38,194 nucleotides of DNA from the NCBI GenBank assembly GCA_035543055.1, contig DATKKJ010000081.1, positions 1 through 38,194 on the forward strand, in the 5' to 3' direction. This DNA is from Terriglobales bacterium. GTDB taxonomy: Bacteria; Acidobacteriota; Terriglobia; Terriglobales; Acidobacteriaceae. Numbering within the stretch: position 1 is the stretch's first letter; each line of letters opens with the position of its first letter. The notes under the pieces were generated by a model. It was not told the DNA's origin. It did not search any database and saw only the letters and a program-made list of their open reading frames with translations. The position numbers and the translations under genes are program-made. Positions 5,031 through 38,194 of the stretch are shown here, piece after piece.

Positions 5031-5100
5031 GAAGACGCCCTGGCAGGCGTCTGTACGGAAAAGCATCTCCGCTCGGTAGAGACGCTCGTCAGGGCGTCTC
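5031..5100. repeat. Paired REP-like element, copy 1
   Basis: Two imperfect palindromes in opposite orientation: GAAGACGCCCTGGCAGGCGT at 5031 and GGTAGAGACGCTCGTCAGGG at 5075, each ending in a GTCTC or GTCTG arm. Related pairs occur at 16551-16618 and inside pdhA at 18991-19059. The core unit is GTAGAGACGCCCGnCAGGGCGTCTC or its complement. It lies just after the rpoD stop (5111), where it could form a transcript-end structure. No transposase is nearby. Confidence 0.8.
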
Positions 5101-7047: not shown

Positions 7048-8949
7048 TCATTGCCGCAAGCGGGCCGCCAGTTCGCGGTCGATGCGCAGCTTCTCCTGCA
7101 CCAGGCGGTTGAGAGTAGTCGCATCGTTCTGCCGCTCCGCCTGGGCGATCTGGTGCTTCACCTCTTGCTGCTGGCGCTCAAGCCGGCGGCGACGTAGCGC
7201 CACCAGCGCTTCTTCCACCAACTCCATCGTGAGTTCCTCGGCCTCCTGCATCAGGGTGGCGGCCAGGAGCCGGCGATCGGATTCCGAAAGCTCCAGCGTC
7301 ATGGGATCGGCGCCGGCCTCGGCCTTGAGCAGTGCTTCGATGAGCGATTCGGCGGCGAGGCCGCGGTGCAGGCCCTCGCTGGTGAGGGTGAACTCGGCCT
7401 GGCGCCAGAGGTCCGGGATGCCGTCCTCGCCGGAGCGGTCGGAGTGCGGCGTCTCGCTGCTCATGGCGGTGGAAGAGGCAAGAGCGCGGATGATGATCCG
7501 CTCCGCCTGGGTAAGCTGAGCCTCGGCCGGCGCCTTCACCGACGCGGCGCGGGTCGCTGCCGCATGCTTCAAGTCCTGGCGCAGGAGCGCGGAATCGATG
7601 CCGAGCTTCTGGGCGATGTCATTGGCCAGTTCGTCACGCACGATCCGGTTGGGCACGCGCTGGATGTGGGGCAGCAGGAAGTTCAGGGCCTTCACCTTGG
7701 CCTCCGGGGACCGAGGCTGGAACTGCTTCATGGCGCGCTCCATGAGGTAGTCGAAGTACTTGGGCGCGCGTTGCAGCAAGTTCACGTAGGCTTCCCTGCC
7801 CTGCTTACGGACGTAGAGGTCAGGGTCGAAGCCCGGCTCCAGAGTCGCGACCTTGATGCTGAAGTCCTCAGCCACCAGCATGGCCAACGAGCGTTCGGCG
7901 GCGGCGGCGCCCGCGGTGTCGGGGTCAAAATTGACGATGATGCGCTTGGTGTAGCGGCCGAGCAGGCGCACCTGCGCCTCAGTGAACGCGGTGCCGGAGC
8001 TGGCGATCACGTTGTGCTGCCCCGCCATGAACACCGAGATGCAATCCATCTGGCCTTCCACCAGGATCACGCTGTCGAGCTTGCGGATGGCTTCCTTGGC
8101 GCGGTCCAGGTTGTAGAGCACCCGGCCCTTGGAGTAGATGGCGGTCTCGGGCGAGTTCAGGTACTTGGGGCCGGATTTCTCGTCCGTCGCCAGGGTGCGG
8201 CCGGTGAAGGCGATGATCTTCCCCGACTCGTTGGAGATAGGGAAGATGGCGCGGTTACGAAATTTGGAGTAGAGGGTCGCTGGTCGCTGGTCGCTAGTCG
8301 CTGGCTGAGAACCCCTGCCCCTGTCATCCTGAGCGAGGGCTTCAGCCCGAGTCGAAGGCCCCCTACTCTCTTCCGTTTGCTTCCAGGAAAACAAGCCGGA
8401 TACTTTGAGTAGCTCCTCGTCGTATTGGCCCTTCAGGCGGTCGCGCAACAGGAAGCCGGAATCCGGCGCGTAGCCGATGCGGAAGATCTTGATGGCCTCC
8501 TCGGTCAGGCCGCGGTTCTTCAGATACTCGCGCGCCTGGGCGCTTTCCGGGCGGCGCAGTTGCTCTTCGAAGAACACGCAGGCCTTCTCGTGCAGCTCGA
8601 CCAGCGCCCCGCGCAGCTTGGCTTCCTTGGCCTCGGCGGGCGAATCGTAGGTCTGCTTCGGCGGGGGGACGCCAAGCTTCTGCGCCACCAGGCGCACCGC
8701 CTCTGGGAAAGTGATGTTCTCGATCTTCTGCACGAAGCTGTACACGTCGCCGGAAACCCCGCAGCCGAAGCAGTGATAGAACTGGCGGGTCTGGTGGACG
8801 GAGAACGACGGCGTCTTCTCGTTGTGAAAGGGACAAAGCCCGGAAAAATTCTGCGCCCCGGCTTTCTTCAGCTTCACGTAATCGCCGACGATGCGGACGA
8901 TATCCGCCTGCTGTTTCAGGGTGTACGCGAAATCGCCGGGGTTAGCCAT
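7048..8949 (-). CDS. dnaG: DNA primase DnaG with an in-frame repeat insertion
   Basis: Synthesises RNA primers for lagging-strand replication and partners with DnaB. Of 633 residues, the zinc-binding domain is at 37-66 (C39, H42, C60, C63), then comes the RNA-polymerase core, and the Toprim fold has LVEGQMDC (E298) and NFDPDTAG (D342, D344). The C-terminal helicase-binding part is rich in charged helices. Between LKVSGLFSWK and YSKFRNRAIFPI, where other DnaGs have a short linker, there are about 33 extra low-complexity residues (about 193-226). They are encoded by repeat DNA at 8275-8360 (see that entry). The insertion keeps the frame and sits in a likely surface loop, so the enzyme is probably functional. 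ATG start at 8949. Confidence 0.96.
   Translation of the reverse strand: MANPGDFAYTLKQQADIVRIVGDYVKLKKAGAQNFSGLCPFHNEKTPSFSVHQTRQFYHCFGCGVSGDVYSFVQKIENITFPEAVRLVAQKLGVPPPKQTYDSPAEAKEAKLRGALVELHEKACVFFEEQLRRPESAQAREYLKNRGLTEEAIKIFRIGYAPDSGFLLRDRLKGQYDEELLKVSGLFSWKQTEESRGPSTRAEALAQDDRGRGSQPATSDQRPATLYSKFRNRAIFPISNESGKIIAFTGRTLATDEKSGPKYLNSPETAIYSKGRVLYNLDRAKEAIRKLDSVILVEGQMDCISVFMAGQHNVIASSGTAFTEAQVRLLGRYTKRIIVNFDPDTAGAAAAERSLAMLVAEDFSIKVATLEPGFDPDLYVRKQGREAYVNLLQRAPKYFDYLMERAMKQFQPRSPEAKVKALNFLLPHIQRVPNRIVRDELANDIAQKLGIDSALLRQDLKHAAATRAASVKAPAEAQLTQAERIIIRALASSTAMSSETPHSDRSGEDGIPDLWRQAEFTLTSEGLHRGLAAESLIEALLKAEAGADPMTLELSESDRRLLAATLMQEAEELTMELVEEALVALRRRRLERQQQEVKHQIAQAERQNDATTLNRLVQEKLRIDRELAARLRQ
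8275..8360. repeat. Composite repeat inside dnaG: four GGTCGCT heptamers plus half palindrome
   Basis: 8275-8302 is four tandem 7-bp units (GGTCGCT three times, then AGTCGCT). At 8323-8360 follows a GTCATCCTGAGCGAGGGCTT... palindrome related to the longer elements at 29685, 31707 and 32263. No complementary heptamer arm is present, so this looks like a one-armed or decayed copy. The frame of dnaG is preserved through it. Confidence 0.8.
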
Positions 8950-16550: not shown

Positions 16551-16618
16551 GGAGACGCGCTGACGCGCTTCTCTACCCGGCTCTTTCGTAGAGACGCCCG
16601 CCAGGGCGTCTCCGGTAC
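16551..16618. repeat. Paired REP-like element, copy 2, upstream of lpdA
   Basis: Two oppositely oriented palindromes, GGAGACGCGCTGACGCGC... at 16551-16577 and GTAGAGACGCCCGCCAGGGC... at 16588-16618. They belong to the same family as 5031-5100 and 18991-19059. The terminal GGTAC of the second unit runs into a TACAAT box, so the element may have contributed part of the lpdA promoter. Confidence 0.8.
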
Positions 16619-18873: not shown

Positions 18874-20283
18874 ATGTCCAAGAAAACCAAGAAAGACGGG
18901 CATAAGCCGCAGAAGCCGAAGCAGAACCTGAACGACCTGAACCTGACCGCCTATCGGGCCAGCACGGTGCCGGTGCGGGCGCATAATTTCGGTAGAGAGG
19001 CCCGTCAGGACGTCTCGGTACGGAGCAATGGCGGAGACGCCCTTACGGGCGTCTCTACTGCGCCCGTCCGCACCGCTCGCTACGGCATCCCCGATTGGCG
19101 GCTGGAAGTGCCGGATTTCCAACTCCGCCAGACAACTAAGAACGGCGAGATCTGCTGGGAGGTGACCGGGAAGCTCGACGGGCCCGCGCCGCCCATCCGC
19201 GAATCGAAGTATCTGAGCCGCGAGCAGTCGATCGAGATCTACCGCTGGATGCACCTGAACCGGCGCATGGAGACCGCGCTCGAGAACCTCTACAAACAGG
19301 GCAAGGTGGTCGGCGGGGTGTACTTCGGGCTGGGGCAGGAAGCGTGCTCGTGCGCGTCGGCGTATGCGCTGAAGAAAGACGAGTGGCTGGCGCCGATGAT
19401 CCGCAACCAGGGCTCGCTGCTGGTCAGGGGTTTCGCCGCCCGCGACATCATGCGGCAGTACATGGCGAAGGCCGACTCGCCCACCTGGGGCCGCGACGCC
19501 AGCTCGCACTTCGGCGACATCAAGGAACGCAATGTCTGCGCGCCCATCTCCATGCTCGGCGACCTGATCCCGGTGATGGCCGGTGTGGCGCTGGGCGCGC
19601 GCTACCAGGGGCGCAACATCGCGGTCATGACCTACATCGGCGATGGCGGGCAATCCACCGGCGTATTCCATGAGGGGCTGAACTTCGCCGCGGTACAGAA
19701 GCTCGGGTTGGTGCTGTTCGTCGAGAACAACCTCTGGGGCTATTCAACGCCCAACGAGAGCCAGTTCGTGATCAAAGACCTGGCGGAGCGCGCCCTGGCC
19801 TACGGCGTGCCCAGCCTGATCATCGACGGCACCGACGCCTGTCAGGTGTACGACGCGGCGCACGAGGCCTGCGAACGAGCCCGCCGCGGCGAGGGCCCGA
19901 CCCTCATCGAAGCCAAGATGATGCGCATGAAGGGACATGCCATCCACGACGCGGCGCAGTACGTGCCGCGCCCGTTGTTCGAGTACTGGCAGCGGCGCGA
20001 CCCCATCGCGCGCTTCGAGAATTACCTGGTCAACGTGAAGAAGTGGCTGTCGCCTGACGAGAACAAGAAGCTGATCGCGGAAGTCGAGCAGCAGCTCGAG
20101 GCCGACCGGGACGCGGCGGTGGCGTCACCCATGCCCGACCCGGCCACCGACGCTGCGCACCAGGGCGTGTACTGCGACGGCGTCTGTCACGAGGTCAAGC
20201 CGAAGTACGGTCTGAAGAAAACGCCTGGCGGGAAGAGTGGCGCGAAACCGAAAACGACGGAAGCGGCGGTGCACTTGAAATGA
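18874..20283 (+). CDS. pdhA: 2-oxo-acid (pyruvate) dehydrogenase E1 alpha, with in-frame repeat insertion
   Basis: Thiamine-diphosphate decarboxylase subunit of the complex; works with the E1 beta encoded two genes downstream. The 469-residue protein has the TPP/Mg motif GDGGQSTGVFHEGLNFAAVQ ending in VENN (about 256-286), plus the phosphorylation-loop-like WGRDASSHFGD region. The first 60-100 residues are lysine-rich and poorly conserved. Residues 40-62 are encoded exactly by a 69-bp REP-like element (18991-19059), so the repeat was inserted in frame in the variable N terminus. The C-terminal tail is also low complexity. Pyruvate versus branched-chain substrate cannot be decided from sequence alone; E1 alpha of this length and style also fits BCKDH-type enzymes. 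Confidence 0.93.
   Translation: MSKKTKKDGHKPQKPKQNLNDLNLTAYRASTVPVRAHNFGREARQDVSVRSNGGDALTGVSTAPVRTARYGIPDWRLEVPDFQLRQTTKNGEICWEVTGKLDGPAPPIRESKYLSREQSIEIYRWMHLNRRMETALENLYKQGKVVGGVYFGLGQEACSCASAYALKKDEWLAPMIRNQGSLLVRGFAARDIMRQYMAKADSPTWGRDASSHFGDIKERNVCAPISMLGDLIPVMAGVALGARYQGRNIAVMTYIGDGGQSTGVFHEGLNFAAVQKLGLVLFVENNLWGYSTPNESQFVIKDLAERALAYGVPSLIIDGTDACQVYDAAHEACERARRGEGPTLIEAKMMRMKGHAIHDAAQYVPRPLFEYWQRRDPIARFENYLVNVKKWLSPDENKKLIAEVEQQLEADRDAAVASPMPDPATDAAHQGVYCDGVCHEVKPKYGLKKTPGGKSGAKPKTTEAAVHLK
18991..19059. repeat. Paired REP-like element, copy 3, in frame inside pdhA
   Basis: GGTAGAGAGGCCCGTCAGGA... at 18991-19021 and GGAGACGCCCTTACGGGCGT... at 19033-19059 form the same opposed pair as copies 1 and 2. 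It is 69 bp, 23 codons, starting exactly on a codon boundary of pdhA. No stop occurs in the used frame. The placement resembles Rickettsia palindromic elements, which also insert in frame in genes; a relationship is not implied. Confidence 0.85.
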
Positions 20284-33016: not shown

Positions 33017-33376
33017 ATGCTCGGGTTGCGGCGCTGGCACGTGAACTTGCTGGTATCAGAGGCGATTGCCACCGCCATAGTGCTATGGGCTTACAACGAT
33101 GTCATCAAGGGAAGAGAAGGGCCGCACGTTTGGGCTAATCTTTTGGCCGGTTTCGGGGGTTCGATCGTGCTGTCGCCCGGTTCGGGCCTCATGTCGTGGA
33201 TGAAGGACCCGCCGCTTTGGGCCGTTTGCCTGGCTGCCGCAGTCGTGTATTCACTCTTTTTCTTCTTGGTAGCCACGACTATCACCCACCTCATCGACGT
33301 CGGTCGCTTCTCCGCCTTGAAGTCCATGCGGATCCGTGGAGGTGAACAACAAGATCTACATCGTTATCTCCGGTAG
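33017..33376 (+). CDS. Small multi-span membrane protein, opposite strand
   Basis: A 119-residue protein with about three hydrophobic segments (SEAIATAIVLWAYN, ANLLAGFGGSIVLS, WAVCLAAAVVYSLFFFLVAT). The start is taken as the ATG at 33017; a TTG at 33011 would add two residues. TGCTAAGAT (extended -10) ends 6 bases before the ATG, so the message may be leaderless. The last 20 bp overlap the end of the portal gene on the other strand. Lower GC than neighbours. Unknown function; it looks like a separately expressed passenger gene in the cluster. Confidence 0.6.
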   Translation: MLGLRRWHVNLLVSEAIATAIVLWAYNDVIKGREGPHVWANLLAGFGGSIVLSPGSGLMSWMKDPPLWAVCLAAAVVYSLFFFLVATTITHLIDVGRFSALKSMRIRGGEQQDLHRYLR

Positions 33377-34555
33377 CCCCCGCATCCTTCTCACCTCGTT
33401 CACCGTCATCACTCCGCTGCGCAGAAGGATCTCCTGGATCTCGGCCTCTTCGCGTTCGTTGCGGACCTCGGTGTCGGTGAAGACGAACTCCAGGTCGTGC
33501 CAGCCGAGCTTCTTGCCGATGGCGTCGCGCGTGAGGTGCTCGGCCAGCAGGCGCGCAGTGGGCACGATGGCCTGGCGGAAGGCGAGCTCCGAGAGTTCGC
33601 CGGCGGTAGAGCGGTTGACGTCGTGCTCCAAGCCGAGGAAGAACGGCGGAATATCGAAGGCGTCGGCGATGACGCGCAGCAGGAACTCCTGCCAGGAGAG
33701 GCGCAGGTCGGCGTCGGTGCCGCCGCCGAAGCGCAGCACCTCCGGCTTGTGCTCCACCGACAGGATGGGCACGCGGCCCGTGCCCTCGATCTCGTCCTGC
33801 CACCAGCGGATGAGCCGCTCGTGGTGCGCCGGCGTCAGGTCCTGGAGCCAGAGCGCGTACTGCACCACCGAGTTCGACGCCAGGCGCGCGGCGTAACGGT
33901 GCGCGCCCAGGAAGGCGTTGATGGTCTCGAACGCGACCTCCAGCCGCCCCAGCCCGAAGGGCGTGTGGGTGCGCGGGTTCAGCCGGATGTAGATGAGCTC
34001 GTCGTCGTTGAGCACGATCCGCCCCTCGGGCCCGGCGCGGCCGGTGTCCTGGGTGTAACGCGGCGATTCGGGACGCCCGTCCCAGTCGGCGCGCATGCGG
34101 ATGGTGGAGCCGTCCACCGGCCAGAGCGCCAGCGGACGGTCCGGCTCGTCGGTGAGCTGGACCTCGACGGCGCCGAAACCGCCCACGATCACGTCCTCGA
34201 GCACTTGCTCAGCCAGCGAGCGGAAACTGTCGTCGGAGTTGGGAGCGTCGAAGTTGTCGGTGAGCACGCGGATGCGCTCGGCGCCCTCAGGCAGCTCCTC
34301 GAGCGCCCGGCCGTTCTTCGGCTGGATGCGCCAGCGCATCCCGGCCACCCGGTCCTTGATAGTGTTGAGGGCCTTGCGTGCGATGGGCGTCTCGGCGAAT
34401 TTTCGGAGGTTGTAGGGCGTGCACTTGGGCAGCGCGCCCTCGGCGCCCCGTGGCGCGTAGGTGCTCAGGATGGAGGGCAGCGGCAGCGTGCGCCGCTTGG
34501 GCACACTCGCCCCCAGGCGCTTGAGAGCGCTCAACAACGTCTCTTTGATTTTCAT
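33356..34555 (-). CDS. Phage portal protein (HK97-type)
   Basis: Dodecameric portal through which DNA is packaged. 399 residues from the ATG at 34555; a longer upstream reading is encoded by a heptamer hairpin and is rejected. Seen: TPIARKALNTIKDRVAGMRW, LEDVIVGGFGAVEV, LALWPVDGSTIRM, GLGRLEVAFETINAFLGAHRY, GTDADLRLSWQEFLLRVIAD AFDIPPFFLG (two adjacent segments) and a C-terminal EIQEILLRSGVMTVNEVRRM RGLPEI region typical of HK97-family portals (DP and NE(A/V)R motifs). It is separated from terminase by three accessory genes, which is unusual. Confidence 0.88.
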   Translation of the reverse strand: MKIKETLLSALKRLGASVPKRRTLPLPSILSTYAPRGAEGALPKCTPYNLRKFAETPIARKALNTIKDRVAGMRWRIQPKNGRALEELPEGAERIRVLTDNFDAPNSDDSFRSLAEQVLEDVIVGGFGAVEVQLTDEPDRPLALWPVDGSTIRMRADWDGRPESPRYTQDTGRAGPEGRIVLNDDELIYIRLNPRTHTPFGLGRLEVAFETINAFLGAHRYAARLASNSVVQYALWLQDLTPAHHERLIRWWQDEIEGTGRVPILSVEHKPEVLRFGGGTDADLRLSWQEFLLRVIADAFDIPPFFLGLEHDVNRSTAGELSELAFRQAIVPTARLLAEHLTRDAIGKKLGWHDLEFVFTDTEVRNEREEAEIQEILLRSGVMTVNEVRRMRGLPEITM

Positions 34556-34587
34556 AAGGATTCTTTTCCGCGGATGAACGCGGAATC

Positions 34588-34661
34588 TGTGATTTGTGAT
34601 TGGTGATTGGTGATTTGCGATTTGTCTGACGTCCTCCACTCACCAATCACAAATCGCAAAT
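34588..34661. repeat. Heptamer hairpin (TGTGATT type) between DUF3037 and portal genes
   Basis: Left arm 34588-34622: TGTGATT, TGTGATT, GGTGATT, GGTGATT, TGCGATT. Right arm 34641-34661: CACCAAT, CACAAAT, CGCAAAT, complementary to the left. The loop is 18 bases. It ends six bases from the DUF3037 stop. This locus is AT-rich while others are GC-rich; only the 7-bp period and arm complementarity are shared. Confidence 0.9.
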
Positions 34662-34667
34662 CCGGTC

Positions 34668-35468
34668 TTACAATCGCAACTCGGCGCGCACTCCATCGAC
34701 GATGCGGGGCAGGTCGGCCGTCATCGCGGTGGCGATACGCGCCTGTTCCAGCGTCGCTAGCGCGAAGGCCACCTGCTCGTCGCCGCGGTCGAGGTCGTCT
34801 TCGACGATGGCGGTCAGCGAGGCTTTGGCCTGCTCGGCTTTCATTATCCCCGCTTCGATCTGGGGGAAGGAGAAAGCCAGAATCTTGGCCGTCTCCGGCT
34901 CGGTCGCGAGCGAGACGGCGTGGAACATCTTGACCTCGCCGTTGGGCCGGTAGCCGCAGTCGATGCGCAGCGGGTCGCCCCTGTGGGTGTACTGCGCGAC
35001 TGCGATACGGTGGCGCACCAGCCTCCACACACCCGCCTGCTCGAAGGCGTCGCGCATGCGGACGAAGATCGCCTGCCGCGCCGACAGTTCGCGCTTCCCT
35101 GCCGGACGCCGCGTCTCCAGGTACATCTGCGCCAGGTTCTCGATCTCGACCGCCGGGTCCTCCGCCAGCACCGCCTTGGCGGGCGTGAGCTGGATGGCGT
35201 TGGAGAACGAATCCTGCAGCTTGCTGAGCAGCCGCTCGCGGTCGGAGTCGGCAAGCATCGTCCGCAGATCGCTCTCCAGCCCTTCGAGGAGCTCGATATC
35301 GGCCGACGGATCCAGGCACTTCACGCGCCGCCAGTCGTGGGTGATGCGGACATCGGCGGCGCCCTCAGGATCCACCACCGCCACCCCGACATTGACGAAC
35401 TCGTTCTTCACCGCATCGGGCGCGTACCGGATCAGGAAGAACTCGCATTGTTTCAAGTCGTCAGCCAT
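34668..35468 (-). CDS. DUF3037 family protein
   Basis: The 266-residue protein starts KQCEFFLIRYAPDAVKNEFV and NVGVAVVDPEG, the signature of DUF3037. Function is unknown. DUF3037 genes frequently neighbour HipA-like kinase genes, as here. Its ATG lies inside a heptamer repeat unit (35467-35473 region), so the repeat itself provides the start codon. The IVP-type gene stop lies 13 bases before it. Confidence 0.88.
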   Translation of the reverse strand: MADDLKQCEFFLIRYAPDAVKNEFVNVGVAVVDPEGAADVRITHDWRRVKCLDPSADIELLEGLESDLRTMLADSDRERLLSKLQDSFSNAIQLTPAKAVLAEDPAVEIENLAQMYLETRRPAGKRELSARQAIFVRMRDAFEQAGVWRLVRHRIAVAQYTHRGDPLRIDCGYRPNGEVKMFHAVSLATEPETAKILAFSFPQIEAGIMKAEQAKASLTAIVEDDLDRGDEQVAFALATLEQARIATAMTADLPRIVDGVRAELRL

Positions 35469-35488
35469 CAGCCATCAGCCGTCAGGAA
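35460..35488. repeat. Inverted repeat, left copy, of the IVP-gene cassette (heptamers)
   Basis: Four 7-bp units (GTCAGCC, ATCAGCC twice, GTCAGGA) plus one base. The 29 bp are a perfect reverse complement of 35868-35896. It contains the stop codon of the IVP-type gene and the start codon of the DUF3037 gene. Confidence 0.92.
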
Positions 35489-35853
35489 GACGCCGCCACC
35501 GGCTGCTCCAAATACTGGAGAAACCCAGTCAGCATACGCTTGATCTCGACGACTGCCTCATTCATGCGTGCGTAGTCTGTCTCGTTCAGGTAATGCAAGT
35601 CTTTCGCCAACAAGAGCTCGTATTCAAGTTCGCTCGCAGAACCCTTCGCGATCTGCAGGAACCGGCCGAAGTCGCGACGGCTGTCCTTACCCGCCCCCTC
35701 GGCTATGTTCTCGGGAATGGATTGAGCCGCTCGCCGCAGTTGGCTTGTCAGCAAGTATTGCTCCTGTTTCGGGAAGTTTTGTGTCGCCCTGTACACGTCC
35801 AACGTCAGGGCGTGGGATTTCTCCCAAACCTTCAGCTCACGGAAATTTCTCAC
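35482..35853 (-). CDS. Four-helix-bundle protein, 23S rRNA intervening-sequence (IVP/S23) type
   Basis: The 123-residue protein has the family pattern NFRELKVWEKSHALTLDVYR, then FPKQEQYLLTSQLRRAAQSI and PENIAEGAG, FGRFLQIAKGSASELEYELL, and a C-terminal helix IKRMLTGFLQYLE. Relatives include proteins encoded in 23S rRNA intervening sequences and the Avd accessory protein of diversity-generating retroelements; they bind nucleic acid or RT. Start is a GTG overlapping the HipA-like stop (GTGA), so it is translationally coupled. The gene is enclosed by perfect 29-bp inverted repeats made of heptamers. No reverse transcriptase is present. Confidence 0.92.
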   Translation of the reverse strand: MRNFRELKVWEKSHALTLDVYRATQNFPKQEQYLLTSQLRRAAQSIPENIAEGAGKDSRRDFGRFLQIAKGSASELEYELLLAKDLHYLNETDYARMNEAVVEIKRMLTGFLQYLEQPVAASS

Positions 35854-36743
35854 TGGATCACCGGCCTTTCCTGACGGCTGATGGCTGATGGCTGACGGCT
35901 CCCTCCCCAGTTCGGGAACGGCGCTCGGGAACTGTCCCGGAACGATTCGATCAGCTCGCGCACCCGCGTACGCCGTTTCAGCAGCATCTCGCACAGGCGC
36001 TCCAGCGCCTCCCAATCCGCTCCGTACCACTCCGGCGGGATGCCTTCCGCGCACTGCCAGAGGGTCTTCTCACCGAACTCCTCGATGCGCTCCAGCCACG
36101 GCTCGAACGACGCCCAGCCACTCACGCCGGCATAGACGGCGTTGCGCATGTACACGCCGCGCAGCGGAGAGTCGGGGAAGGTCCACTCGCCGGCGTTGAA
36201 GCAGTATCCCTGGTCGATAAAGGCCGCGGCATACCGGCGTTCCCGCGACTTGCGCCAGAACGCCGCCTGCCGCCCGTTGGCGTTGCAGGTCCACTTGTCG
36301 AAGGCCAGGACGCCGGCGAAAGCGTCCATGTTCTTCACCCGCTCGAGCAGCTCGTCGGGGATGTAATCGAAGACCTGGCCAGCCAGCGGGTCCACCAGGT
36401 ACCGCGACCCGAACTGCAGCCCGGGCACGCACCGCAGTGATTGCCCCGCGAGTTCGACGCGCAGCTCCGGGGTGTGCTCGATGAGCCATCCGCCGACCTC
36501 AACCACTTCGGGCACGGCGACCGGCAGCCCGATGCATTCCGCCAGTCTGGTTGCGAGCAACTCATTGGCCAGAACCCGCACGTGCTGCGGATTGTTCTGG
36601 AACTTCACGACGTAGTAATTCCCGTCGTCGGCGCGCATCATTTGCGATTGGGCGCCACCGCGCATACGCCGCACGTGTTGGACGGCCGTGACCAACCGCG
36701 CATCGTACGTCCGGCGTGTACATCCGTCTGTGACGCCCGACAC
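35850..36743 (-). CDS. HipA-like kinase domain protein (HipA_2 type)
   Basis: The 297-residue reading begins at a GTG (36743); the true start may be slightly downstream. Seen: MRADDGNYYVVKFQNNPQHV (ATP-site lysine K47), ELLATRLAECIGLPVAVPEV, the catalytic loop FDKWTCNANGRQ (D149, N154, N156), and AAFIDQGYCFN (metal-binding D177). HipA-fold kinases phosphorylate protein targets; this subfamily is paired with DUF3037 but has no established substrate. The last ~15 residues (after NWGG) are encoded by the right inverted repeat of the IVP cassette, so the original C terminus was altered. No HipB-like antitoxin is visible. Confidence 0.85.
   Translation of the reverse strand: MSGVTDGCTRRTYDARLVTAVQHVRRMRGGAQSQMMRADDGNYYVVKFQNNPQHVRVLANELLATRLAECIGLPVAVPEVVEVGGWLIEHTPELRVELAGQSLRCVPGLQFGSRYLVDPLAGQVFDYIPDELLERVKNMDAFAGVLAFDKWTCNANGRQAAFWRKSRERRYAAAFIDQGYCFNAGEWTFPDSPLRGVYMRNAVYAGVSGWASFEPWLERIEEFGEKTLWQCAEGIPPEWYGADWEALERLCEMLLKRRTRVRELIESFRDSSRAPFPNWGGSRQPSAISRQERPVIQ
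35868..35899. repeat. Inverted repeat, right copy, of the IVP-gene cassette (heptamers)
   Basis: TTCC followed by four 7-bp units (TGACGGC, TGATGGC twice, TGACGGC). 35868-35896 is the exact reverse complement of 35460-35488. It lies inside the C-terminal codons of the HipA-like gene and upstream of the IVP-type start. Confidence 0.92.
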
Positions 36744-36754
36744 ACGGGAAAGTC

Positions 36755-36819
36755 AGATCGGGCCATCGGGTCATCGGGCCAGGTGAAGATGACGCGATGG
36801 CTCGATCGCTCGATGGCTC
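36755..36819. repeat. Octamer-type hairpin repeat after terminase gene
   Basis: Left arm with 8-bp units AGATCGGG, CCATCGGG, TCATCGGG (36755-36778); right arm with GATGGCTC, GATCGCTC, GATGGCTC (36796-36819). The arms are complementary. Same architecture as the heptamer elements but with period 8. Ends two bases from the terminase stop. Confidence 0.8.
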
Positions 36820-36821
36820 GA

Positions 36822-38194
36822 TCACCGCAGGGGCAGCGTGGCCAGCTGCAGCCCCGGGCGGTCGTCCACCATCTCCTGGCGGACGGCCAGGGCGATGGCC
36901 ATGGCCAGCACGCAATCGTCATGGGCGCCGCCGGCGGCGGACGAGGTGCCGTCCGGGTGCCGCACGAAGGTCCGGCACTCCTCCAGCAGCGCCCGGCTGG
37001 AGAACAGTTGCGGCGCATCGGTCAGGACGGCGGCGAAGTTGGCCAGCATCGCCGGGCGAGTGACCGCCGAGGTCAGCCAGCCGAGTTGTCCGCCGTGCTC
37101 ATACAGCCGCTCGTACTTGTCGCCGCGGGCCAGGTGGGCCAGCACGGCGTGGCCGTGGTTGTTGCGCTCGACGGCCACCAGCGCGTGGTTGTATTCGTGC
37201 GCCAGAGCCGCCACCCGGGCAGCCAGCTCCTGGGGCGTGAAGTGCCCGCGCAGCTCGGCGCATTGCATCGCGGTCGTGCGCTCGATCACCGCGGCGCAGG
37301 CGTAGTCGCCCTCGCTGCCGCCGCCCGCCGGGTCCACTCCGACGATGTACTGGTGCCCGTTGGCAGGCAGCCAGAGTCTGAGGCGGCCGTTGTCGCGCAC
37401 CTCGTAGGGCTCGCCGCACTCCGCCAGCCGGGCCTCGATCTTCTCCAGGTCGAAGACGCACTCGCCGCTGGCCAGGAAACAGTGGGTATCGTCCTCGGCG
37501 TACTCCTGCGGCGCCAGCCCGCGGAACTCGGACTGCAGGTGGCGGCGGAAGGCGATCTGGCCGAGGGTCAGGCCTTCACGATCGACGAGCTCTCGCTCGT
37601 CGCTTGTAAGGTCAGTTTGCAGGAGGCAGGAGGCAGGGAGCAGTAGACCTCCTCCTGCGTCCTGCCGTCTGCTTCCTGCGTCCTCCGCCGTGTAGGATTC
37701 CTCGAACCACCAGGGGAAGAAGTGCTTCACGTAGCCGGACTCGTCGGCGCGCTGCCACTCTTCGTAGAAGACGCCGCCGGCGCCGCAGGGCGTGGACTCC
37801 AGCACGATCTCCCCGTTGCCGGGGACAGCGGCGCGCAGCGATGCCAGGGTCGCGGCGGCGTCGCGCGGCCAGCGGGCCACCTCGGAACAATGCAGGTTCT
37901 GGATGGTCATGCCCCGGCCGGCGCTGGAGTCGGCCGCCGATTCGATGCGGTACTCCGAGTCCAGCCGGGCAAAGACGATCTGGCCCACGTTGTCGCGCGA
38001 CGTCGCCAGCGCCCCGGTCTGCAACCGCTCCGGCAGGTTCTCCAGGAAGCGGTGCACGATACGGAAGATCTGCTCGGCCGACGCCCGGTCGTGCGCCACC
38101 TGCACGGTCAGCGTGCCCGGCCGGGTGATGGTCGAGATGAAGAAACGCGCGGCCACGTAGGTGGTGACGCCCAGTTGCCGCGCCTTGAGCACGA
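36822..38194 (-). CDS. Phage terminase large subunit, 5' end off window, with in-frame repeat insertion
   Basis: ATP-driven DNA packaging motor and nuclease. The visible 457 codons start inside the ATPase domain at KARQLGVTT (Walker A-like, KxRQxGxTT). HCSEVARWP is the Walker B region and ESTPCG the coupling motif. The nuclease domain begins near VGVDPAGGGSEGDYACAAVI and contains HALVAVERNNHG. Between WWFEESYTAE and LTSDERELVDREGL there are about 25 extra residues (about 170-194 of the visible part), encoded by a two-armed heptamer hairpin at 37620-37689. Frame is preserved. It heads the visible cluster. Confidence 0.88.
   Translation of the reverse strand, partial: VLKARQLGVTTYVAARFFISTITRPGTLTVQVAHDRASAEQIFRIVHRFLENLPERLQTGALATSRDNVGQIVFARLDSEYRIESAADSSAGRGMTIQNLHCSEVARWPRDAAATLASLRAAVPGNGEIVLESTPCGAGGVFYEEWQRADESGYVKHFFPWWFEESYTAEDAGSRRQDAGGGLLLPASCLLQTDLTSDERELVDREGLTLGQIAFRRHLQSEFRGLAPQEYAEDDTHCFLASGECVFDLEKIEARLAECGEPYEVRDNGRLRLWLPANGHQYIVGVDPAGGGSEGDYACAAVIERTTAMQCAELRGHFTPQELAARVAALAHEYNHALVAVERNNHGHAVLAHLARGDKYERLYEHGGQLGWLTSAVTRPAMLANFAAVLTDAPQLFSSRALLEECRTFVRHPDGTSSAAGGAHDDCVLAMAIALAVRQEMVDDRPGLQLATLPLR
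37620..37689. repeat. Heptamer hairpin (CAGG type) in frame inside terminase gene
   Basis: Left arm 37620-37647: CAGGAGG twice, CAGGGAG, CAGTAGA. Right arm 37655-37689: CTGCGTC, CTGCCGT, CTGCTTC, CTGCGTC, CTCCGCC. The arms are complementary in type with a 7-base loop. It belongs to the same sequence group as 24638-24710 at the other end of the cluster. Confidence 0.88.

Follow-up and report, generated by a model that had tools for sequence, protein, structure and literature searches.

S23 genes between inverted arrays of tandem heptamers: a possible class of bacterial mobile element

Introduction

Among the closest described relatives of the element reported here is the intervening sequence (IVS) of Coxiella. 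In the excerpted parts of the paper that describes it, tandem GACAGAT heptamers precede an S23p open reading frame (ORF), the element has a 28-bp terminal stem and RNase III processes it; a mobile origin is discussed there, and the IVS is proposed to be selfish and horizontally acquired (PMC4990558). We analysed a stretch of 38,194 nucleotides from a Terriglobales bacterium (Acidobacteriaceae; GenBank assembly GCA_035543055.1, contig DATKKJ010000081.1), called the window throughout, in which a gene of the S23/IVP family (PF05635) lies between inverted arrays of tandem 7-nt units. PF05635 proteins are common and, to our knowledge, have no agreed function. We find that such arms are the rule, and a common architecture, for the members of the family that we examined. 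The best account is probably a widespread mobile or selfish single-gene cassette, with arms recognised by its own S23 protein and with the IVS of 23S rRNA as its rRNA-resident form.

Tandem heptamers have been described in several other settings. Cyanobacteria carry short tandem heptamer repeats known as STRR. Beggiatoaceae contain TAACTGA tandem heptamer repeats (PMC4679880), GGGAATC forms inverted pairs in Xanthomonas, for which a paper on Xanthomonas and Nostoc reports no general association with mobile elements (PMC4692102), and paired octa- and heptanucleotide arrays of Geobacter metallireducens were taken by the authors for global regulator sites (PMC2700814), all as given in excerpts of these papers. 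The word S23 is absent from the main text of the three. Among open-licence papers (no preprints), and in the excerpts available, only the Coxiella IVS paper was found to tie S23 genes to inverted repeats made of tandem units.

Results

The S23 cassette of the window

The first-pass annotation of the window had described two repeats, at 35460-35488 and 35868-35896, as exact reverse complements with only an IVP-type gene between them. Both statements hold: the window sequence confirms the repeats over 29 nt, and the single ORF between the arms, on the minus strand, matches PF05635 over its full length in a profile search (E 8e-41; 139 bits, cut-off 33.8), which places it in the family. With a repeat finder the arms grow to 33 nt at 97% identity (35456-35488 and 35868-35900, spacer 379 nt). 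They are made of tandem TCAGCCA heptamers, in runs at 35461-35485 and 35871-35900. As read from the sequence, the likely start of the S23 gene is a GTG at 35853 that overlaps the stop codon of HipA_2 (GTGA), and its stop codon lies at 35482, within the left arm. The gene order on the minus strand is thus HipA_2, S23/IVP, DUF3037, and the three lie between phage-type terminase and portal genes. The features are as follows.

35460..35488, no strand: left arm, tandem TCAGCCA heptamers, holding the S23 stop and DUF3037 start codons
35868..35896, no strand: right arm, inverted heptamer array, upstream of S23 on the sense strand and within the 3'-terminal part of the HipA_2 ORF
35482..35853, minus strand: four-helix-bundle gene of the S23/IVP family (PF05635, E 8e-41), coding for about 123 aa; start codon assigned by reading the sequence
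35850..36743, minus strand: HipA_2-like kinase (PF20613), upstream host gene, its final codons traversing the right arm
34668..35468, minus strand: DUF3037 (PF11236), downstream host gene, adjoining HipA_2 at the 21 empty sites examined
34588..34662, no strand: gene-less hairpin of TGATTTG-type heptamers, separated from the cassette by about 0.8 kb and flanked by the portal and DUF3037 genes

In a test of the flanks the cassette reached an inverted-repeat score of 30 and a period-7 score of 32. At random positions in the genome of a sister species of the same genus (G001), an inverted-repeat score of at least 12 was obtained at 9 of 400 and a period-7 score of at least 16 at none of 400. The inverted repeat of the window is therefore beyond chance.

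Tandem inverted arms are common to S23 genes

Profile searches returned 11 PF05635 matches in the window's own genome (G000, 3.32 Mb) and 8 in G001. The S23 genes of G000 are surrounded by inverted arrays whose units differ (AGTCAGG, TCAGCCA, AGTAGCT, GTACCAG, GTAGGAG, GCAGGAG, GTCAGAG and others). Over the two genomes, 17 of the 18 testable loci had an inverted-repeat score of at least 12, one locus at a contig end (L009) having been left out; the sole miss, L029, scored 11 and has a 9-nt unit. The best period was 7 or 14 in 15 of these loci, 8 in L011 and 9 in L027 and L029.

We then surveyed the best 80 of at least 584 confirmed S23 loci from a genome scan, chosen for their resemblance to four S23 proteins from G000 and G001; the share obtained may therefore not hold family-wide. 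About a dozen phylum-level groups are represented, among them Acidobacteria, Planctomycetes, Bacteroidetes, Proteobacteria, Verrucomicrobia, Clostridia, Chloroflexi, Cyanobacteria, Gemmatimonadetes and SAR324. An inverted-repeat score of at least 12 was found at 64 of 79 testable loci (L081, with a short flank, was left out), versus 18 of 400 when flanks taken from different loci were paired. A stricter test asked for an inverted repeat together with a tandem period of 7, 8, 9 or 14; 57 of 78 S23 loci passed it (two had a flank shorter than 100 nt), whereas of the 397 other ORFs of 95-200 aa at these loci only 4 did (Fisher p 8e-51). The expectation of the first-pass annotation that other S23 genes would be flanked in this way is thus borne out.

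The same counts bear on coincidence. The window alone contains a dozen heptamer runs, and an inverted repeat around its S23 gene might simply reflect a repeat-rich genome; however, 57 of 78 versus 4 of 397, and 17 of 18 in two genomes, refute this reading, and its probability is practically nil.

Plasmids carry S23 loci as well: of 28 records found, 12 were fetched, and 8 of these passed the inverted-repeat test. Three of the four misses (L294, L296 and L299) have, by eye, an upstream TCAGAAG-type array with a matching end near or inside the end of the gene. On cyanobacterial plasmids S23 genes were also seen within clustered regularly interspaced short palindromic repeats (CRISPR) operons, twice between cas6 and cas4 and once between cas10 and a Cmr3 gene (L292, L298, L295).

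The repeat unit follows rules and covaries with the protein

The unit is 7 nt long, sometimes 8 or 9, and its sequence varies from cassette to cassette. Usable arms were obtained from 77 of 98 loci (three arms longer than 60 nt were skipped; others scored below 13 or had short flanks), and the 61 with period 7 alone entered the following counts. On the sense strand of the gene, in the upstream arm, 56 of the 61 heptamers contain AG, mostly as TAG or CAG and often followed by T; by hand calculation, AG is expected in about 36% of random circular heptamers.

Similar S23 proteins carry similar heptamers, even between phyla. Among cross-phylum pairs, 22% of the 65 with at least 60% protein identity matched at six or more of the seven heptamer positions, versus 2.4% of the 614 pairs below 50%, and none of 2000 shuffles of heptamers among loci gave as high a value (p 0.0005), in a test that takes no account of phylogeny and uses phylum labels assigned from record titles. 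For example, L053 (Gammaproteobacteria) and L092 (Syntrophomonadaceae) both have GGGGTGA, at a protein identity of 65%. A link between S23 proteins and their heptamers, suggested at the first pass, gains support from this covariation.

Empty sites, gains and losses

With the 4.9-kb neighbourhood of the window cassette as query, 45 of 60 family genomes gave some match, and G001 has the neighbouring genes at 81-88% identity. HipA_2 and DUF3037 are adjacent (gap -61 to 287 nt) at all 21 orthologous junctions fetched, namely those of G001 and of the 20 family genomes that match both genes, a subset of the 45; no S23 gene was detectable at these junctions with the window protein or any of the 98 S23 proteins. 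Empty sites, for which the first-pass annotation had suggested a search, thus exist, and the split of a HipA_2/DUF3037 pair by the cassette, claimed there, is supported. Since all 21 junctions are empty, the window copy is most simply read as a likely gain in its own lineage. Two further details of that annotation have to be revised. The right repeat was thought to have rewritten the end of the HipA-like gene, but the empty site of the same-genus genome also has GCCGTCAGCC, the unit farthest out towards HipA, so that this end was not simply rewritten by the arm. The left arm does hold the S23 stop and the DUF3037 start codons, as stated; the start was not simply supplied by it, however, as ATGGCTGA is also found at the empty site of G056. 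The portal, DUF3037, HipA_2, terminase order itself (window 33356-38192) is the same in G001 and many family genomes; this phage-like cluster seems vertically kept and is perhaps a gene transfer agent.

At six more sites the sister species lacks the cassette: L001, L003, L005 and L006 of G000, and L027 and L029 of G001. The gap there is 26, 21, 63, 44, 0 and 114 nt, respectively, versus about 430 nt, and none of the 98 S23 proteins detected an S23 gene at the six sites. The comparison thus covers 7 of the 19 S23 loci of the two genomes, and two others, L010 and L028, are one site common to both, recognised by its neighbours. All seven compared sites differ between G000 and G001, and one further site is shared.

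This turnover bears on the idea that the arrays are binding sites of S23 acting as a host regulator, repeats and gene being kept by ordinary selection. In its favour, the excerpted Geobacter metallireducens paper takes the paired arrays of that species for global regulator sites (PMC2700814). A difference at all seven compared sites between two species of one genus, with one site shared, is fluid for a host regulon, and the units differ between cassettes of a single genome; we regard this explanation as very unlikely.

Remnants and older copies were also seen. At the L003 site of the family genome G005, an AGTCGGG array lies next to a truncated S23 gene, internally deleted and still between arms, which matches over 30 aa (73% identity, E 1e-10); the L001 site of G005 has a hairpin without S23. 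At the L006 site, G026, of another genus, has an S23 gene (L220 373-687, G026:C13) whose best match among the 98 proteins is L006 itself (55%), in arms without a clear period-7 run; it may go back to an old insertion that is shared with G000, or mark a hot spot. Cassette gains and losses both occur, and outside the window site their direction cannot always be assigned. As to a seeding of the arms by the native target sequence, the longest words common to the two were 9 nt at the window site, 7 nt at L001 and 5 nt at L003, the others being near control.

Transcription and the RNA stem

In 55 of 63 scorable loci S23 and its upstream gene share a strand, and in 43 of 63 both neighbours are on that strand (17 of the 80 loci had no usable flanking ORFs). 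Given this orientation of the upstream gene, S23 is probably expressed by read-through from it.

The first-pass annotation had drawn a parallel with 23S rRNA IVS, the arms forming an RNA stem around the S23 message. In such a model selection would act on the arms as a stem of double-stranded RNA, and RNase III, by cutting there, would free operon transcripts of the S23 message. The excerpted Coxiella paper has the same protein family and a similar stem length (PMC4990558), cassettes lie mostly between co-oriented genes and the window S23 gene overlaps the HipA_2 stop, all of which would suit the model. Yet mismatches between the arms are not skewed towards G-U pairing on the sense strand (53 would be compatible with it and 69 would not), an rRNA match was found neither in the window nor in any of the 80 survey loci, and an RNase III stem does not need tandem periodicity. 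Selection for an RNA stem was not detected in the mismatch counts; the RNA-stem part of the annotation is not supported, and the model as a whole is distinctly unlikely. No Rfam family was assigned to the hairpins at the gathering threshold in the window and eight stretches or in the 80 loci; elsewhere in the 80 loci there were seven Rfam matches in all, to tRNA (three), RNase P, a group II intron and two small RNAs.

Gene-less arrays and points against a mobile cassette

Arrays without an S23 gene are frequent. An unbiased 400-kb sample of G001 contained 37 tandem arrays with units of 5-12 nt, versus 3 in a Markov control, and for 12 of the 37 an inverted partner follows at a distance of 19-101 nt, which leaves no room for an S23 gene. 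The G001 gene-less arrays resemble the heptamers of resident cassettes: 13 of 21 match at six or more of seven positions, with 5.4 expected (p 0.0065). Compared with acidobacterial heptamers, 5 of 16 gene-less sites match exactly, with 0.33 expected; these exact matches are all to one heptamer, AGTACTC, and count as a single observation. AGTACTC is the unit of the G001 cassette L023, and its dimer gave 60 matches in G001, 2 in G004 and none in nine other family genomes, with none for the reversed control pattern; overlapping matches in long arrays are counted repeatedly and the cassette's own arms are included, so that these are not numbers of sites. The window unit is found at five further places in G000, its reversed control at one. 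Within the window, further heptamer arrays lie at 8275, 24639, 24979, 30677, 31798, 32229, 32611, 34588 and 37619, some of them gene-less hairpins.

Similar arms can also enclose another kind of gene. PDDEXK_3 (GxxExxY) genes have inverted tandem arms, with units of 8-11 nt (about 9), at 8 of 8 loci in family genomes (L283-L290; L291, the ninth to match, was excluded as a second fragment) and at 3 of 8 on plasmids (L304-L311). Given the plasmid count the design is only partly shared, and we did not retain PDDEXK_3 as a second full case. On a Sphingomonas plasmid, one PDDEXK_3 gene lies between fabD and fabG and has no detected arms.

Several observations weigh against a mobile cassette that is recognised by its own protein. 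As to the arms, the strict test was failed by 21 of 78 S23 loci. The AGTACTC dimer gave 25 matches in G000, counted as above, though no exact AGTACTC cassette is present there, and in that genome an AGTACTC inverted pair (L316 about 907-1283, G000:C204) encloses a small membrane-protein-like ORF and no S23; the arms are therefore not strictly tied to S23. G004 has a heptamer array without S23 at the window's own junction, so that an array may precede the gene or occur on its own; the G056 junction showed no period-7 run, and the array is present only in G004. As to movement, the cassette encodes neither a transposase nor a nuclease nor a reverse transcriptase, the seven empty sites, with boundaries replaced or diverged, showed no clean target-site duplication, and copies within a genome have diverged, so that no recent jump was caught. 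As to history, the poorly resolved S23 tree retains some phylum signal (31 label changes; 50.9 when shuffled, minimum 11), the G005 remnants may mean old shared insertions at the L001 and L003 sites, and at the L006 site what looks like a recent gain may instead be the loss, from G001, of an insertion that is old and shared.

Part of this evidence would fit an explanation in which the heptamer hairpins are themselves the element, arising and spreading on their own by slippage and by template switching at palindromes, with S23 genes as passengers caught in them or homing to them. The excess of arrays over the Markov control, the closely spaced inverted partners, the G004 array, the hairpin around an unrelated ORF and the PDDEXK_3 genes in similar arms of about 9 nt are all in its favour. 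However, only 4 of 397 other small ORFs are flanked in this way, and capture would thus need a high selectivity for S23; moreover, it has to contend with the protein-heptamer covariation between phyla and with the polarity of the unit relative to the gene. We consider it unlikely, though worth keeping in view.

The window has other repeats as well. Two 8-nt tandem arrays, of ATCGGGCC and GATGGCTC types, lie at 36757-36822 between HipA_2 and the terminase gene, and dispersed palindromes resembling repetitive extragenic palindromic (REP) elements, GTAGAGACGCCC..GGGCGTCTC, are found at 5033-5100, 16580-16614 and 18989-19063.

Discussion

The mobile-cassette reading of the first-pass annotation is supported. 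Its observed parts are the enclosed architecture, the empty sites, the remnants, the polarity of the unit and the covariation of unit and protein. A cassette consists of an S23/IVP four-helix-bundle gene within terminal inverted repeats of several tandem 7-nt units (some of 8 or 9 nt). We propose that the S23 protein binds its own heptamer array, as DNA or RNA, and that this binding drives or protects the spread of the cassette, while an enzyme of the host, or one otherwise resident, would carry out strand transfer. Hairpins that have the same heptamer but no gene might be spread in trans by S23 or arise by deletion.

A broader view is about as likely as not: S23 cassettes would form a distinct, so far unrecognised class of bacterial mobile element, present in about a dozen phylum-level groups, with the IVS as one branch. 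Period, polarity and the AG step would be held constant in it, and the remainder of the unit would evolve in concert with a non-catalytic four-helix-bundle protein that binds the array. The IVS, the gene-less hairpins and perhaps the PDDEXK_3 genes in arms of 9-nt units would belong to the same world. Cassette ends that covary with the protein give PF05635 a concrete candidate function, recognition of the cognate heptamer array. They also offer a common origin for 23S rRNA intervening sequences, for the scattered heptamer repeats of bacteria and for their inverted pairing, all three of them poorly explained. A new question of mechanism follows: by what route does an element spread if the sequence of its ends changes, yet their period persists and the two arms stay matched?

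How does the cassette compare with known systems? Like the S23 cassette, the REP-associated tyrosine transposase (RAYT, Y1_Tnp) system has a single gene between inverted elements, and gene-less REP copies are present in the same genome. RAYT genes, however, encode a Y1_Tnp HUH transposase, whereas the gene of the window cassette belongs to PF05635 and encodes no transposase. The arms differ as well, since those of RAYT/REP are simple palindromes without tandem units, in contrast to the period-7 score of 32 at the window. Of 48 listed Y1_Tnp matches, 24 loci were tested: 22 had inverted arms, and the best periodicity score was at most 12. Y1_Tnp as a mover acting on the same arms is not supported by these 24 loci, the arms being inverted but without a strong tandem period.

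Avd of the diversity-generating retroelements belongs to a related fold family, and a resemblance of PF05635 to Avd is noted in an excerpted paper (PMC10053308). The window S23 protein matches the bAvd model weakly (27.3 bits, short of the cut-off of 40), and no reverse transcriptase is among the four neighbours scanned (portal, DUF3037, HipA_2 and terminase), in which respect the locus departs from these retroelements. Two S23 relatives have solved structures in the PDB, 2GSC (XCC0516) and 2RLD. The first is, by its name, presumably from Xanthomonas campestris.

The repeats of the STRR, Beggiatoaceae, Xanthomonas and Geobacter descriptions also have tandem units of 7 (or 8) nt, are often intergenic and partly form inverted pairs. 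There is a likeness to the 23S rRNA IVS too. To judge from the excerpted Coxiella paper, the two share the protein family and the plan of a single small ORF bounded by terminal inverted repeats (about 28 bp in the IVS), an element length of about 430 nt and tandem heptamers beside the ORF, and the GACAGAT unit contains the AG step, as do most units of S23 cassettes. The window cassette thus has the S23-type ORF between terminal inverted repeats that marks an IVS, and differs in location: the IVS sits inside 23S rRNA, from which RNase III cuts it out, whereas the cassette is intergenic, between HipA_2 and DUF3037. The IVS is already known as a selfish element carrying the same gene, and 23S rRNA intervening sequences would, on our proposal, be copies of the cassette that landed in rRNA.

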